A stretch of 5,813 nt of DNA from Candidatus Hodarchaeota archaeon (GTDB taxonomy: Archaea > Asgardarchaeota > Heimdallarchaeia > Hodarchaeales > YT1-057): positions 1-5,813 of the forward strand of contig JAEOTI010000501.1 of assembly GCA_016839955.1 (NCBI GenBank), read 5' to 3'. The notes beneath the pieces are model-generated. The model did not search any database, was not told the DNA's origin, and was given only the letters and a program-made list of their open reading frames with translations. Position 1 is the stretch's first letter, and each line of letters opens with the position of its first letter. Shown piece after piece: positions 1 through 5,716 of the stretch. A program made the translations under genes and the position numbers.

Positions 1-1719
1 ATCCTGTTCTTTCTGAGGATGTCTTAATAACCAATCATAAATTTCTCTCAAAATCCACGAGACTACCATTTGTCGTTTTGTCTGGTCGGTACCAACACTC
101 GCCAGGTTGATAATATAGAGTTGAGGTGATTTCGACACTAATTCATTAATGTTTAAGGGATATCCTCCCTTAAAGAATGATCCTTCTGTCCCGATGGCTA
201 ATTTCATTAAATTCTTACTTAAATCTGAAACCTTTTTCTTACTCAATAAAGACTCAATATCAATTTCTGAATTATCTAAAACAGATCTAATTGTTGTTGT
301 TTCACTTATCCGTCCTGCAAACGTTCGAATATCATATCTTCTCCCTTTTAACCAATCCTCTTTTAAAACTGCTTCTAATAGAGCTTTTTCGTGAGGAATT
401 TTCTTTAGACTATAACCCAGAATATCTAATATTTGAGTCGCCATGGCATCTAAAACAATTGTCAAAGATTCTGGATCATTAATTATTTCTTTCGCAGGAG
501 GAGCAAGTAAATCAATTGTGAGCTTCTTTCCTTTTTCAGAATTTGGTGTAAAAATGGTAATCGGAACCGTAGATACAATTTTTTTTCCTATCTCACTATT
601 AGCTAATGCTAAAGAACATAAATCTCCCTGAGGATCGATTAAAATAGCAGAATGATTTTGTTGTAAAATTTCCTCAATTATTACTTTTCCAAGAACTGTT
701 TTTCCTGATCCTGAGGAACCCAAAATTGCTATATGTCGTGTCAATAAATCCTTACGAATCATGATTTCTTCGTCATCTTTCACAGATTTTCCAATATCAA
801 TCTCATGAGATTCGTGAATGGAGGGAGTTTTTACCAAATCTTTAATTTTATCAATGATTCCTGCTTTTATTTCATCTGGAGGTTTTATTCCATCAAACAT
901 TTTATAACAATCGTGTTTTAATAGGCACTTATCACAGAGTTCTTCATCAGATATTCGGTGAGGGTAATCTTCTAACCACTGAGCCATTTCCAGAAGTAAT
1001 GTAAGTAATTTAGGCTTTAGATCTTCCGAAGGGGGAAGTTCAACATCCCGAATTCCATCTTCGAAAAAGTATAGAATCCTTATTTGACTCCTCTCTTTAA
1101 TTTCTCTCTCAATCCCCATTGAATAACACACAAGTTGAATGCAATCTTGATTAATATTCTCTGGTGAGCCAGTCTTATAATCAAAAATAATAATTTGATT
1201 TGTTTCAGGATCTCTTAATAGGAAATCAATTCTTCCAGTTAGTAGAAAATGTTTATCTTGGATAATTAATGGTAATTTGAAAGATTTCTCTGATGCCATG
1301 ATAATATTATCTGCGATCTCTTCTAGTGGATACCGAAAAAGTGCCTTTTTAATAATTAAGGCAAACTTTTCTGAAGAACCATCGAGTAATATCCATGCTT
1401 TTTCAATTGCATTAATATTACGAATTTTTGAGAGTTTTTTATCTATCCTTTCTGAATATAATTCATAGAGTATGTCTTTACATCTCTCCTGAATCTCTTT
1501 GATATTCATATTTTCAAAGAACAAAGAAGAAATCTTAGATCTATTTGAAAGTATTTTAACAAAATCATTCAAGGTGTCATGAACAAGGTTTCCAACACCC
1601 AATCCCATGGGATAAACTGGTCTCTTTCGAAATTTCTTTGCTAAAACAAAAATTCTTGGACATTTAATGGCATTCCTTACGTCGGTTGCTGAAAAGCGAT
1701 ACTCATGTTTTGGTGGCAC
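1..1719 (-). CDS. Cas4/AddB-type Fe-S nuclease fused to HerA-family ATPase (3' end off window)
   Basis: Seen: an uninterrupted frame of 573 codons runs from a GTG at 1719 to base 1 with no stop, so the C-terminus is missing. The start is firm: an in-frame TGA (1740-1738) lies 18 nt upstream, with a purine-rich Shine-Dalgarno between. Residues 1-275 look like a RecB-family PD-(D/E)XK nuclease: C20 in KCPR, H47 in GNLVHDTL, D165 in GRID, D180-x-K182 in DYKTG, and QLVCY at 195-199. C262, C265 and C271 follow with C-x2-C-x5-C spacing. One N-terminal and three C-terminal cysteines match the 4Fe-4S layout of AddB and Cas4-like nucleases. A linker at about 276-325 leads to LLTRHIAILGSSGSGKT (Walker A 334-341) and LIDPQGDL (360-367), typical of the HerA/FtsK superfamily; Walker B should lie past the edge. 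No obvious HAS-barrel precedes the ATPase, and the nuclease takes its place. Inferred role: ATP-driven DNA translocation coupled to cleavage. It is the last visible gene of the operon. Confidence 0.88.
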   Translation of the reverse strand, partial: MPPKHEYRFSATDVRNAIKCPRIFVLAKKFRKRPVYPMGLGVGNLVHDTLNDFVKILSNRSKISSLFFENMNIKEIQERCKDILYELYSERIDKKLSKIRNINAIEKAWILLDGSSEKFALIIKKALFRYPLEEIADNIIMASEKSFKLPLIIQDKHFLLTGRIDFLLRDPETNQIIIFDYKTGSPENINQDCIQLVCYSMGIEREIKERSQIRILYFFEDGIRDVELPPSEDLKPKLLTLLLEMAQWLEDYPHRISDEELCDKCLLKHDCYKMFDGIKPPDEIKAGIIDKIKDLVKTPSIHESHEIDIGKSVKDDEEIMIRKDLLTRHIAILGSSGSGKTVLGKVIIEEILQQNHSAILIDPQGDLCSLALANSEIGKKIVSTVPITIFTPNSEKGKKLTIDLLAPPAKEIINDPESLTIVLDAMATQILDILGYSLKKIPHEKALLEAVLKEDWLKGRRYDIRTFAGRISETTTIRSVLDNSEIDIESLLSKKKVSDLSKNLMKLAIGTEGSFFKGGYPLNINELVSKSPQLYIINLASVGTDQTKRQMVVSWILREIYDWLLRHPQKEQD

Positions 1720-1725
1720 TGTGGA

Positions 1726-1739
1726 CCTCTCTCCTCCTC
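1726..1739 (-). promoter_or_regulatory. Shine-Dalgarno of the nuclease-HerA gene
   Basis: On the minus strand the sequence GAGGAGGAGAGAGG precedes the GTG at 1719. It contains AGGAGG 13 nt from the start and a second purine block ending in GAGG 6 nt from it. The element overlaps the TGA of the upstream ATPase gene, so terminating ribosomes could re-initiate here. It decides the GTG start, because no other start codon lies between the in-frame TGA and the GTG. Confidence 0.75.
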
Positions 1740-3858
1740 AAACAAGATTTTTTGTTGATTTTAATTGAATTAATAATTCTTTATTCGGCCCTTCTCTAAT
1801 AATTATTTTTCTTTGCTTTTCTAGATCCTTTAAATCAGAGATTATTGAAGAGTCAGGGATATCCTTGAATCTTTTTTTAATTGAATTGAAACCTAGGAAT
1901 CTTTTTTCTTCAATGAGATTCCATAATTCGTCTCTATATTGGAAAGAAGTGACTTCTTGCTGCTTTTCAGTTTCTTCAGGAGAAACTACATCAATTTGAA
2001 TGTTGTATAAAGATACAACAAAAATAAATAGCTCCTCAAAAAATTTCAATGTTTGAATATATGAATTTACTAGGATTTTACAGACATCTTCATAATCGAG
2101 AATCTTATCCTTATAAGAGAGTTCTTTAGCGCCAGCAGAATCTAGAAGACGTTTTAAAGCGTAAAGCTTTAAATTAATTTTATTATCTATCTCAAAGTAA
2201 CCACCTTGAGATCTGATAGTTTCTACGAGGGTATTTGTTTTTTTAGCTGTTCGTGAGATCATTAGATCCTTTTCACGAATGAATATAGAATTGTCATAAT
2301 GGCCCTCGTTTTTGTAAGTAATTAAGCGATTCAAAGTATGATAGAGTTTTACCATATTACTCGCATTACTACATTCAATGCCAATTTTCTTATCTAAGTT
2401 AGAATGTCTAAAGTGCAATAATACGTTTATTCCTTTTTTCCCACGTTCAAAAATTAAATTTCTTTCAACATCTGATACCTTTACACCTTGAAAGCTGATT
2501 TTATAATCTTTCATACCCCTAAGGAGCTGATAAATTGCAGAAATTATTATATCCTCTCTTTTATCCATAGATGAATTCATATATTCAACATGATACTTAT
2601 CTTCAATGCTTACAAGTGATTTCAAGATGAATTCAGTTTCATCTTTGACAATATCTTCATCCAAATCTCCTTCAGGTGGAGCGATTTCAACTCCTGCAGT
2701 TTGAATTTCTTTGAAAAAAATACCTGCATTTCGTATGAATTTTCTTGGATTCCAAGCGCTTTTCTTTGAAAGATCCTCAATTGTATCTTCAGTAAATGGA
2801 TAACGGGGATTAGAAGGTGAAATAGTAGCCCTCTTCCACACTATATCCATTCTCTTTTCAATTATTAATCCACTTTCTTCTACTGTCAATTTATCAAGTG
2901 TTGAAGTATTCTCAATACGATCAATAACAGATTGATCAAGATTGTCTCTTACGAAAGTATTCCATACACCAGTTTGAACCATAATTATGGAGAGATGATT
3001 CTTACACGTATTATAGATATTAACAATCATCTGAAAGAACTTTTGTAATCCAACTATTCCAAAACTCTTCTCAATTGATTCAATCTGATCAAAAGCAAAA
3101 ACTACAATCTTATCGGTTAGTTCAAGAAGTGATTTCAATACATTAAAAGCAATGTTCTCTTCTTCAATGGAAATAGTTGCTCCAATAAGCCCCATCTCTT
3201 CTTCAGACAAACTTTCACATTGTAACCACTTAATTGCATAGAGAAATTTACGTGGATTAATCGCTTCAAATAAGATTTGAACAAGCTGAACTTCAATACC
3301 AGGAAAATCTCTGCTAATCTTGAATATCATTGTTTCTTTAATATCATTGAGGTCCTCTTCTGACAGTTTGAGTTTAAATATCTTAGTAGGAGACTTACGA
3401 AGCTCATTGAGAAGTTTCTTAAACTTTTTTCTGCCTTTTAGGGCTTTTTCCATTTGTTGAAAGAGAAGATTTGCAACAAGTTCCTCTAGAAAAGTAAAAT
3501 CGGAATCTGGAATCTTTTTTCTTAAATTTGATGATAATTCCCTTAGAATGTGCATATAGAATTTATCTAGATTAGGTACAGGTTCGATCTCGACAAAATA
3601 AAAGTTCTTTTCTTTAGCTTTTTTCCTCAATCGTGCCAAAAGATGAGTTTTTCCTAAACCTACTTCTCCTAGAATCAAATGAATGAATGAACTGTACTCT
3701 TTATCAGAAATCTCCTGAATTTCTGTAAGAATTTCACTGAAACATTTGGCGTTAAAAGATTCTACATCAAATATATCATCTTCCCAGGCTGATTTTACAT
3801 TGGTCTTTCTAAAAGGGTTACTTGCTGAATAAATTGCGTTTTGAACTTCTTCAATCAT
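1738..3858 (-). CDS. AAA+/ORC-like P-loop ATPase with C-terminal winged helix
   Basis: Complete 706-residue soluble protein, ATG at 3858, TGA at 1740-1738. Seen: Walker A GEVGLGKT (64-71); strand VEIEPVP (89-95); a long charged helical insert (about 115-245); Walker B VVFAFDQIE (252-260, D257 and E260); sensor-1-like strand IIMVQTG (291-297); R314 in VIDRI; and NPR (370-372), a likely sensor-2. This order fits the ORC/Cdc6- and STAND-like AAA+ ATPases. WLQCESLSEEE (211-221) with the following helices recalls the insert of BrxC/BrxD-type defence ATPases, but I would not assign that family. Residues about 433-560 are alternating strands and helices around IGIECSN (492-498), perhaps a degenerate nuclease-like fold. 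The last 65 residues look like a winged helix. There is no signal peptide or clear membrane helix. It sits 17 nt after the small winged-helix gene and 18 nt before the nuclease-HerA gene. Inferred role: DNA recognition, motor loading or licensing. Confidence 0.85.
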   Translation of the reverse strand: MIEEVQNAIYSASNPFRKTNVKSAWEDDIFDVESFNAKCFSEILTEIQEISDKEYSSFIHLILGEVGLGKTHLLARLRKKAKEKNFYFVEIEPVPNLDKFYMHILRELSSNLRKKIPDSDFTFLEELVANLLFQQMEKALKGRKKFKKLLNELRKSPTKIFKLKLSEEDLNDIKETMIFKISRDFPGIEVQLVQILFEAINPRKFLYAIKWLQCESLSEEEMGLIGATISIEEENIAFNVLKSLLELTDKIVVFAFDQIESIEKSFGIVGLQKFFQMIVNIYNTCKNHLSIIMVQTGVWNTFVRDNLDQSVIDRIENTSTLDKLTVEESGLIIEKRMDIVWKRATISPSNPRYPFTEDTIEDLSKKSAWNPRKFIRNAGIFFKEIQTAGVEIAPPEGDLDEDIVKDETEFILKSLVSIEDKYHVEYMNSSMDKREDIIISAIYQLLRGMKDYKISFQGVKVSDVERNLIFERGKKGINVLLHFRHSNLDKKIGIECSNASNMVKLYHTLNRLITYKNEGHYDNSIFIREKDLMISRTAKKTNTLVETIRSQGGYFEIDNKINLKLYALKRLLDSAGAKELSYKDKILDYEDVCKILVNSYIQTLKFFEELFIFVVSLYNIQIDVVSPEETEKQQEVTSFQYRDELWNLIEEKRFLGFNSIKKRFKDIPDSSIISDLKDLEKQRKIIIREGPNKELLIQLKSTKNLV

Positions 3859-3864
3859 AAGTAT

Positions 3865-3873
3865 TCACTCCCC
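3865..3873 (-). promoter_or_regulatory. Shine-Dalgarno of the AAA+ ATPase gene
   Basis: The minus strand reads GGGGAGTGA, ending 6 nt before the ATG at 3858. It lies inside the 17-nt gap after the TAG (3878-3876) of the preceding gene, which supports both this start and co-translation of the two genes. Confidence 0.7.
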
Positions 3874-3875
3874 TT

Positions 3876-4526
3876 CTAACTACGGAATTTTAAAAAATAA
3901 ACCATTCCTCTTCCAGGAACCTCTATCCCATACTCTGGCTCTTTGATTGTACTCGCATCATATGCTATCTGAAGATCGATAATTCTTTTTTCTTCTAATT
4001 CTAATAGTAATTCATTAATTTTATCTGGGGTGAATTTGGAGTATTTTTGTATTAAATTCTTCTTGATAATATCAAGAGGAATAAGACCATGGAATCTTGA
4101 CTCTTTGATGTTCGCTTCCTCATAGATTTTTTTTATTGTTGATTGAAATTCATCAATTGATAATAAAGATTCATCTTTAACTTCTGTATCAGTACTAAAA
4201 CGGTTCATAAATCTTCCATAACCAATAAATTGGTTCCCCAAATCTTCCATAGTCCTACCTAAGAGTTTAAGGATAATTTCTCTATTTTTCGAATTATAAA
4301 GCTCTTTTTTCCCTTCTTGAGTAAGTTCAGGCTTTTTTCCTCTTGGAGTTATAGTTAATTCCTTTAATAACGTCTCTAACTTTTTCCAATCTAATAATCT
4401 ATCCGAGAAAGGCCTTGACAGAAGATTTGCTCTAGCAATTAACATCGATTTATTTGGAAAGCCTTTTTTTTCAGCCTCCAAGGCAATTAAGATTGCGAAT
4501 TTTTCATATATTAATTTTTGATTCAT
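3876..4526 (-). CDS. Small helical protein with probable N- and C-terminal winged-helix domains
   Basis: Complete 216-residue protein, ATG at 4526, TAG at 3878-3876. I do not recognise a named family. Seen: a lysine-rich, mostly helical, soluble sequence without catalytic motifs, cysteines, signal peptide or membrane segment. Residues 1-75 (helices, then KKLETLLKELTITPRGKKPELTQEGKKEL as two split pieces: 48-60 and 61-76) resemble a winged helix with a wing near TPRGKKPELT (60-69). Residues about 80-130 form a helical middle. Residues about 147-215 have the winged-helix pattern LIPLDIIKKNLI, a second helix, LLLELEEKRIIDLQ (173-186), and a final strand GRGMVYFLKF (205-214). Being first in the operon, it could be an autoregulator, an adaptor that brings the ATPase to DNA, or a specificity subunit; the sequence does not choose between these. 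The domain assignment is inferred from secondary-structure pattern only. Confidence 0.8.
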   Translation of the reverse strand: MNQKLIYEKFAILIALEAEKKGFPNKSMLIARANLLSRPFSDRLLDWKKLETLLKELTITPRGKKPELTQEGKKELYNSKNREIILKLLGRTMEDLGNQFIGYGRFMNRFSTDTEVKDESLLSIDEFQSTIKKIYEEANIKESRFHGLIPLDIIKKNLIQKYSKFTPDKINELLLELEEKRIIDLQIAYDASTIKEPEYGIEVPGRGMVYFLKFRS

Positions 4527-4530
4527 ATTG

Positions 4531-4538
4531 TCACCCTC
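4531..4538 (-). promoter_or_regulatory. Shine-Dalgarno of the first operon gene
   Basis: The minus strand reads GAGGGTGA, ending 4 nt before the ATG at 4526. It is close to the anti-Shine-Dalgarno complement GGAGGTGA and supports the chosen start. Confidence 0.65.
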
Positions 4539-4705: not shown

Positions 4706-4728
4706 TTTTGTTGATTTTTTGTTGATTT
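4706..4728. repeat. Tandem A+T-rich direct repeat, period 11
   Basis: TTTTGTTGAT occurs at 4706-4715 and again at 4717-4726, an 11-bp period, or about one helical turn. Same-face spacing could suit a protein binding site in the divergent promoter region. The 16-bp word GATTTTTTGTTGATTT (4713-4728) recurs exactly at 1746-1761 inside the end of the ATPase gene. Low complexity makes chance plausible. Confidence 0.4.
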
Positions 4729-4731
4729 CAA

Positions 4732-4746
4732 CTTAAGATTTAATAA
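4732..4746 (+). promoter_or_regulatory. Candidate archaeal TATA/BRE for the GIY-YIG gene
   Basis: The plus strand carries CTTAAGA followed by TTTAATAA (4739-4746), similar to an archaeal BRE plus TATA box. A start about 25 bp downstream would fall near 4770 and give a 5' leader of about 30 nt before the ATG at 4802. The upstream motif CTTTTAAAT (4661-4669) is an alternative with a longer leader. No -35/-10 pair stands out. Confidence 0.35.
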
Positions 4747-4801: not shown

Positions 4802-5716
4802 ATGAGTAATCCACCACGATACGGTAAAACATTACGGATATACATTCCCGAAGGAATAGCTACTGGTTTACGAAAAGTGGAAATAATCAATTGGACAGGA
4901 ATTGCTTATGCATGTTCTCGGAGTAAGATTGACAAATTAAAACTAAGAAAAGAAGTAAAGAATGCAGGGGTATATCTTTTGATTGCGGAGGATGAAGAAT
5001 CACCAGCTGGTTTTCAAGTATACATTGGATCTAGTGAGAATGTTATTAGACGAATCAAACAACAGATGGATGAAAAAGATTTTTGGGACCAGGTCATTGC
5101 TTTTACGAGTAAAGATGAAAATTTGACCAAAGGACATGTCGAGTATTTAGAATCACGCTTGATAAATATGCTCGATGAAGCAAATATGGTTAGCCTTCTG
5201 AATACTGCAATTCCAGTTAAAAATCATATTCCTGAACCTGATACAGCTGCTATGGAGGAATATTTAGACAATTTGTTGCTTATTATGGGAACTTTAGGGT
5301 ATCCGAATATCCACAGGCAAAAAACAGCTTCTATTATAGCTTCAAAATCAAAACTTCAGGATTACACATTCAATATACACAATATTCAGAGACATGCAAA
5401 CGCTACAATGGAGATAGATGATAATGGAAATTATCTAGTTCGATCAGGGGCTCACATTAGCACAGAAGTTAGCCCCTCTTTTGATGTCATGAAAGGTGTA
5501 AAAATCTTAAGAGACCGCTTAATCGAACAGAACAAATTAGAATTATCACCTGATGGAAAATATTATATCCTTAAAGAGGATACATCATTTCAGTCACCAA
5601 GTTATGCAGGTGGATTTGTTCAGGGAAGGAAGTGTAATGGGAGGACTGAGTGGAAAACAGAGAATAATAAGGCGTTAGTTGACATTGAAAAAGATTTATT
5701 GGAGCTAGACCACTAA
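4802..5716 (+). CDS. GIY-YIG nuclease family protein with C-terminal DUF4357-type domain
   Basis: Complete 304-residue soluble protein, ATG at 4802, TAA at 5714-5716. Seen: the N-terminal segment GLRKVEIINWTGIAYACSR (22-40), typical of the stand-alone GIY-YIG/DUF4357 family; then the nuclease core with GVY (56-58), YIG (74-76), R83/R84 in the expected arginine place, and GHVEYLESRLI (111-121) with E117 as the likely metal-binding glutamate. All hallmark residues are present, so the nuclease is probably active. A helical linker at about 145-205 precedes the C-terminal domain, which ends in SPSYAGGFVQGRKCNGRTEW (265-284), the conserved DUF4357 pattern. The length of about 300 residues fits the family. 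The physiological role of these proteins is unsettled; DNA cleavage by the GIY-YIG fold is known. The gene is transcribed away from the nuclease-HerA operon with its own leader, so it is a neighbour rather than a proven partner. Confidence 0.9.
   Translation: MSNPPRYGKTLRIYIPEGIATGLRKVEIINWTGIAYACSRSKIDKLKLRKEVKNAGVYLLIAEDEESPAGFQVYIGSSENVIRRIKQQMDEKDFWDQVIAFTSKDENLTKGHVEYLESRLINMLDEANMVSLLNTAIPVKNHIPEPDTAAMEEYLDNLLLIMGTLGYPNIHRQKTASIIASKSKLQDYTFNIHNIQRHANATMEIDDNGNYLVRSGAHISTEVSPSFDVMKGVKILRDRLIEQNKLELSPDGKYYILKEDTSFQSPSYAGGFVQGRKCNGRTEWKTENNKALVDIEKDLLELDH

Follow-up and report, generated by a model that had tools for sequence, protein, structure and literature searches.

A three-gene set of Asgard archaea, a candidate variant of the predicted Orc/Cdc6-HerA capture systems

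Introduction

The window analysed here is an entire contig of 5813 bases from an Asgard archaeon (Candidatus Hodarchaeota, JAEOTI010000501.1), and it raises the question of what three co-directional minus-strand genes do together: they encode a small winged-helix-type protein, then an ORC/Cdc6-type AAA+ ATPase, then a fusion of a PD-(D/E)XK nuclease to a HerA motor. In archaea, HerA pairs with the NurA nuclease. We think it somewhat more probable than not that the trio is an Asgard three-gene anti-invader module, working like the predicted Orc/Cdc6-HerA "capture" systems.

These systems are known from computationally predicted "HerA/FtsK capture" neighbourhoods (Rakesh, Aravind and Krishnan 2024; PMC10853773). 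They comprise an Orc/CDC6 ATPase with an inactive restriction endonuclease (REase) domain inserted before its C-terminal winged helix-turn-helix (wHTH), together with an active REase, HerA/FtsK and a wHTH; some carry an additional multi-wHTH gene. Their HerA domains belong to clades 2, 4 or 5 of that study. The nucleases described there belong to two REase families, one of them AbiJ-linked, or are a 3'-5' exonuclease fused to HerA. The authors propose that the ATPase positions the machine on DNA and that HerA intercepts the invader.

Results

Gene layout and domain composition

An initial annotation, made from the sequence of the window, had described three tightly spaced genes, each with a Shine-Dalgarno sequence. 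The open reading frames (ORFs) and their upstream stretches bear this out: the spacers measure 17 nt (3859-3875) and 18 nt (1720-1737), and a purine-rich Shine-Dalgarno-like stretch precedes all three starts (Table 1).

The second protein had been called an ORC-like ATPase, and its matches to AAA_22 and to ORC/Cdc6-type folds agree. ORC/Cdc6, TnsC and BrxC are among its best Foldseek and VIA rows, at low Foldseek TM-scores (about 0.2 by query length), and its match to BrxC_BrxD (20.4 bits) is under the 22.2-bit cut-off. For residues 403-620, many of the top Foldseek and VIA rows are REase-fold enzymes. The D/E columns at the catalytic positions of this domain vary and are not conserved. The ATPase carries an inactive REase domain after its AAA+ core, as a capture system requires.

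The third gene likewise corresponds to the annotated Fe-S nuclease-HerA fusion. The nuclease part matches PDDEXK_1 and not NurA in Pfam, and the HerA part matches DUF87 (E 1.1e-17). Residues H47, D165, D180, K182, Q195 and Y199 and the last three of four cysteines (C20, C262, C265, C271) are identical across 24 rows, two pairs of which are near-copies; C20 sits in a region absent from some rows. As judged from these residues, the nuclease appears to retain its catalytic centre and the cysteines typical of Cas4/Dna2 proteins of the Fe-S type. Scores against the NCBIfam equivalogs cas4 (46.2 bits) and CedD (40.5 bits) are under the cut-offs of 65 and 600 bits. Longer relatives of the fusion measure 711-784 aa, and it is uninterrupted in P0008, P0009, P0010, the loci L115, L001 and L160, and others. 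Its two best relatives come from the same groups, Promethearchaeota and Hodarchaeota, as those of the ATPase, which are 88% identical in a Promethearchaeota genome and 82% in a Hodarchaeota fragment.

The winged-helix claim made for the small protein stands only in part. The protein looks DNA-binding, and its residues 131-183 match MCM_WH_arc weakly (E 0.014, under the family cut-off). Two of its three trio relatives match HxlR or EarA, also weakly, and the HTH or wHTH matches of the members are N- or C-terminal and present in some members only. The C-terminal approximately 100 residues are conserved with the genes in the same position at L115, L116 and L001.

Conservation of the trio

The neighbourhood check that the initial annotation had proposed was run on 227 Asgard genomes of the phylum of G001 (Lokiarchaeota CR_4), with at most five ATPase and four fusion candidates scored per genome. 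The order small protein-ATPase-fusion recurs, as in the window, in three of them: L115 (genome G081), L116 (G054), where the contig ends within the fusion, and L001 (G001), whose ATPase record has unread letters and appears as two ORFs. Trio-type ATPases and fusions lie together at all four loci with readable adjoining DNA, the window included. The ATPase-fusion pairs P0002/P0008 and P0004/P0010, the two members of each pair being on contigs of equal length (205,157 and 25,690 bp), very likely adjoin too. Gene order of this constancy indicates more than a chance association, and marks the trio, at the level of sequence, as a real three-gene module.

ATPase-like matches at E 1e-10 occur in 122 of the 227 genomes, but most of those listed are restricted to the central part of the profile and apparently come from a second family, which is widespread. 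Matches starting near the profile N-terminus are found in 15 genomes, and fusions or pieces beginning at the nuclease in four (G001, G054, G055, G081). The small protein is matched at E 1e-4 in five genomes, full length in the three trio genomes; in G043 the match is to the C-terminal part only, with an in-frame stop, and no trio ORFs were found in that locus (L179) when looked for. The fifth, G227 (E 6e-5), has a small wHTH-type gene immediately before a 431-aa ATPase relative (L178:3409-5548), perhaps a minimal pair; the fusion was not found in L178.

The initial annotation had named rare co-occurrence of the homologues as grounds against a module. This applies in part and to the ATPase only, which stands alone in 11 genomes. 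In the ATPase tree, seven sampled stand-alone genes of these 11 form one clade with the G055 gene (100/100), and the trio types lie outside it, spread over more than one branch. A Fisher test based on full-length ATPases in 4/4 fusion genomes (p 1.3e-5) is superseded, as the G055 ATPase groups with the stand-alone clade: a trio-type ATPase accompanies the fusion in 3/4 genomes, which are not independent. The G055 fusion begins 151 nt inside its contig.

The apparent second family (L162:2701-4560, L163:1699-3618, L180-L182) is ORC-like or BrxC_BrxD-like, often about 520-660 aa long, and is present in around a hundred of the 227 genomes, mostly with one match listed per genome. The stand-alone sister clade is mostly of about 770 aa (L117-L127; G042, G043, G045-G053).

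Among 80 loci listed in a contig scan for the fusion, only L001 matched from the nuclease onward, and absence there means little. Beyond Asgard archaea, with at most two candidates scored per genome, the fusion matched in 0/398 Thermoproteota genomes, an empty result that is uninformative as it had no positive control, and past E 1e-100 in 2/392 Halobacteriota genomes. The G228 match is limited to the HerA part. That of G741 (L183:2-820) is a fusion fragment lying where its contig ends, with 100% identity to P0018 across 271 aa; it reflects either gene transfer from Asgard archaea or wrong binning of the contig. No ATPase match was obtained in G741 or G228, again without a positive control and equally uninformative. 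By eye, HNH- and GIY-YIG-looking ORFs lie near the G741 fragment. A final protein search added a single weak relative, P0078.

Genomic neighbourhoods

The annotation had also asked whether the trio lies among known defence genes. Defence-like neighbours were present at all three loci scanned; L116, with a single partial neighbour, was outside the scan. At L115 the trio comes after same-strand genes for a Cas3-like helicase, an HD protein, Csc2/Cas7d, an unassigned 206-aa protein and Cas6, which together make up a type I-D-like operon (Csc2/Cas7d is over its NCBIfam cut-off; Cas6 has a PADLOC match of E 1.7e-43 but is under its NCBIfam cut-off). Between 2 and 9 kb downstream of the trio, L001 encodes Cas6, a CARF protein (E 2e-9) and another HerA-containing protein. 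The window supplies a divergent gene matching the PADLOC candidate defence family PDC-S14.

Repeat scans of L115 and L001 revealed no CRISPR arrays, PglZ had no match among the window proteins or the scanned neighbours of these two loci, and no integrase, relaxase or membrane pore genes were recognised among scanned neighbours. MADS was considered and rejected: mad8 is the best motor-type PADLOC match of the L115 and L001 fusions (E 2.7e-19 and 1e-19), and no other MADS protein was recognised among the scanned neighbours. The L001:12073-20061 cluster reads radical SAM protein (weak viperin match), Cas6, CARF protein, TFIIB-like protein and a 906-aa HerA-containing protein.

Comparison with known systems

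The initial annotation did not recognise the combination as a named system; it does, however, fit the capture neighbourhoods of PMC10853773. Both contain HerA, a wHTH-type gene and an active PD-(D/E)XK-type nuclease, and in both the AAA+ part of the Orc/Cdc6 ATPase is followed by an inactive REase domain. The trio differs in its nuclease, which looks Cas4/Dna2-like (Fe-S RecB type) and is fused N-terminal to HerA, and in its Asgard hosts, where it once adjoins a type I-D-like cas operon. The main text of PMC10853773 makes no mention of Asgard, Cas4, RecB or Dna2. The class is hence already in print. Within it, the trio is most readily understood as a new Asgard variant, whose apparent novelty lies in the Cas4/Dna2-like nuclease fused to HerA and in the hosts.

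Other systems are less close. DndFGH and DptFGH also consist of a wHTH protein, an NTPase and a HerA-bearing nuclease, but DndF has a P-loop kinase domain, and DndH models (1678-1715 positions) include many extra domains, unlike the fusions. The DndH match in the window fusion spans the start of HerA only, and the fusion is not a large multi-domain DndH with a C-terminal HerA. The HerA/FtsK-centred BREX-related capture (BRC) system (PMC12839542) shares an ORC/Cdc6 ATPase, a multi-wHTH protein and HerA, but is described with PglZ, DUF6079, a STAND NTPase and DUF4007, none of which was recognised in the scanned trio loci; the pairing of PglZ with BrxC/DUF6079 expected of BREX or BRC was likewise not found there. 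Archaeal HerA-NurA likewise joins a HerA motor to a nuclease, but that of the trio is PDDEXK_1/Cas4/Dna2-like and fused. Cas4 of CRISPR-Cas shares the RecB fold and cysteine pattern; the trio nuclease scores under its equivalog cut-off and is attached to HerA. A lead by description only is arCOG03166, an archaeal protein uniting AAA+, HTH and RecB nuclease domains and noted as "likely involved in defense" (PMC4158269). HerA does not occur in the main text of two archaeal defence surveys (PMC11291487, PMC12988326), and beyond the papers cited no literature on the trio was among the matches listed, most subscription journals and preprints being outside the search.

The fusion copy in the window is a hybrid

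The window's own fusion gene combines two subfamilies. Its residues 1-325 are 60-95% identical per bin to P0008 (76-95% over residues 1-300, where identity to P0011 is 10-30%), and residues 346-572 are 95-98% identical to P0011 and 28-58% to P0008. In half-gene trees the window groups with P0008-P0010 (100/99) in the first half and with P0011 (100/97) in the second. The likeliest cause is a metagenome assembly chimera: the changeover is confined to at most 24 nt, which encode GSGKTVL in either subfamily and lie about 700 nt from the end of the contig, as a k-mer assembly chimera would predict. Genuine recombination between two paralogous fusions, swapping the HerA motor domain, is the less probable explanation. 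The preserved reading frame speaks for it, as does the exchange of HerA domains, already a published theme in the HerA/FtsK capture neighbourhoods (PMC10853773); the very high identity of the second part to P0011 and the lack of any other hybrid among the rows compared speak against it. The fusion architecture is independent of this copy, since it is uninterrupted in other full-length relatives.

Features of the window

Table 1. Features of the trio and its surroundings in the 5813-base window.
Feature	Position	Strand	Remark
PD-(D/E)XK nuclease-HerA fusion, 573 codons, truncated at window edge	1..1719	-	
HerA-subfamily switch point, between residues 335 and 344	691..714	-	at HerA Walker A, within 24 nt
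HerA Walker A GSSGSGKT, residues 334-341	697..720	-	
Cas4/Dna2-like nuclease domain, residues 1-275	895..1719	-	PDDEXK_1 E 1.4e-17
Shine-Dalgarno-like purine run, fusion gene	1726..1739	-	
ORC/Cdc6-type AAA+ ATPase with REase-fold domain and C-terminal wHTH-like segment, 706 aa	1738..3858	-	
C-terminal wHTH-like segment of ATPase, residues 638-700	1759..1947	-	secondary structure of full model only
REase-fold domain of ATPase, residues 403-620	1999..2652	-	predicted model pLDDT 91
ATPase Walker B-like FAFDQ, residues 254-258	3085..3099	-	D257, Q258, E260 invariant, 15 rows
ATPase Walker A GEVGLGKT, residues 64-71	3646..3669	-	G64, G67, G69, K70 invariant, 15 rows
Shine-Dalgarno-like GGGGAGTGA, ATPase gene	3865..3873	-	
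Small DNA-binding-type protein, 216 aa, C-terminal winged-helix-like region	3876..4526	-	ORF
Shine-Dalgarno-like GAGGGTGA, small gene	4531..4538	-	
DUF4357 protein, PADLOC candidate defence family PDC-S14	4802-5716	+	E 4.5e-88; divergent from trio

A 275-nt gap separates the trio from the divergent DUF4357/PDC-S14 gene. This intergenic region contains short repeats only, recorded without a chance estimate. A tandem of TTTTGTTGATT lies at 4706-4727 and 4713-4736, and a 24-nt copy (88% identical) at 1746-1769, near the 3' end of the ATPase gene and 3 kb from the tandem.

Discussion

Domain make-up, gene order, the intact nuclease active-site residues and HerA Walker A, and the variable REase positions of the ATPase are what the sequences support. 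On the capture model, the small wHTH-type protein and the ORC-type ATPase would recognise a DNA site or state, which the dead nuclease-fold domain and wHTH-like segment of the ATPase may help to grip. The ATPase would bring in or load the HerA ring on the recognised DNA. HerA would then pump this DNA through its ring and feed it to the attached Cas4/Dna2-like nuclease of the Fe-S type, which would degrade it. Complex formation, ring loading, translocation and target choice are predicted steps, and a defence role is likely.

The neighbourhood evidence for that role is only suggestive, because three loci were readable and the control was small: ten genes around two stand-alone ATPases included no cas gene, and four of them match PADLOC, one strongly (subtilase/IetS models). 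These PADLOC matches weigh against a defence reading, as does the lack of any fusion at E 1e-40 in the 11 Asgard genomes with a stand-alone ATPase.

Part of the same evidence would suit a housekeeping set linked to DNA repair or replication, in which the ORC-like ATPase would flag DNA that is broken or stalled and the fusion would resect ends like HerA-NurA or RecBCD/AddAB. The pairing of HerA with a nuclease recalls HerA-NurA, and a role outside defence would suit the stand-alone sister clade of ATPases, in which 9/11 loci have a 359-375-aa ORF immediately upstream (two of these ORFs were read and look alike). We nevertheless consider this unlikely: the trio is patchy (3/227 genomes), its readable loci adjoin cas or candidate defence genes, and end resection by the fusion is weakened as an explanation because a NurA match over the Pfam cut-off was found elsewhere in 6/6 genomes tested, including the three trio genomes. 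Less probable again is a mobile-element module for replication, partition or DNA transfer, in which HerA would pump DNA and the ORC-like ATPase would act as initiator. The HerA part does match TrwB/TraD and CedD models (the NCBIfam ones far under their cut-offs), and PMC4158269 counts Orc/Cdc6-like and HerA-like families among the virus-linked ones of archaeal "dark matter" islands, but the ATPase matches none of 50,697 phage and 72,556 plasmid records, neither it nor the fusion is matched in viral contigs, and the scanned neighbourhoods offered none of the mobility genes listed above. Identity as a phage, plasmid or virus gene was rejected on these searches.

The most speculative reading, to which we give little credence, couples the trio to CRISPR: an ORC ring would select DNA and the HerA-Cas4/Dna2-like fusion chew it, finishing the targets of a type I-D-like effector or supplying spacer fragments, a RecBCD-like role built from an initiator ATPase, with natural swaps of HerA halves at Walker A.

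An anti-invader module of the capture type would bear on the defence repertoire of its hosts. A survey of Asgard archaea (PMC11291487) finds known defence systems to be scarcer in four of five Heimdallarchaeia groups, among them Hodarchaeales, and suspects that uncharacterised systems exist; the trio is a concrete candidate. If the proposal is right, an ORC-clade ATPase, a HerA pump and a Cas4/Dna2-type nuclease would be united in one small module, and three proteins would offer a tractable test of the predicted capture mechanism, a type of machine so far predicted only computationally, in the archaea that are the closest known relatives of eukaryotes.
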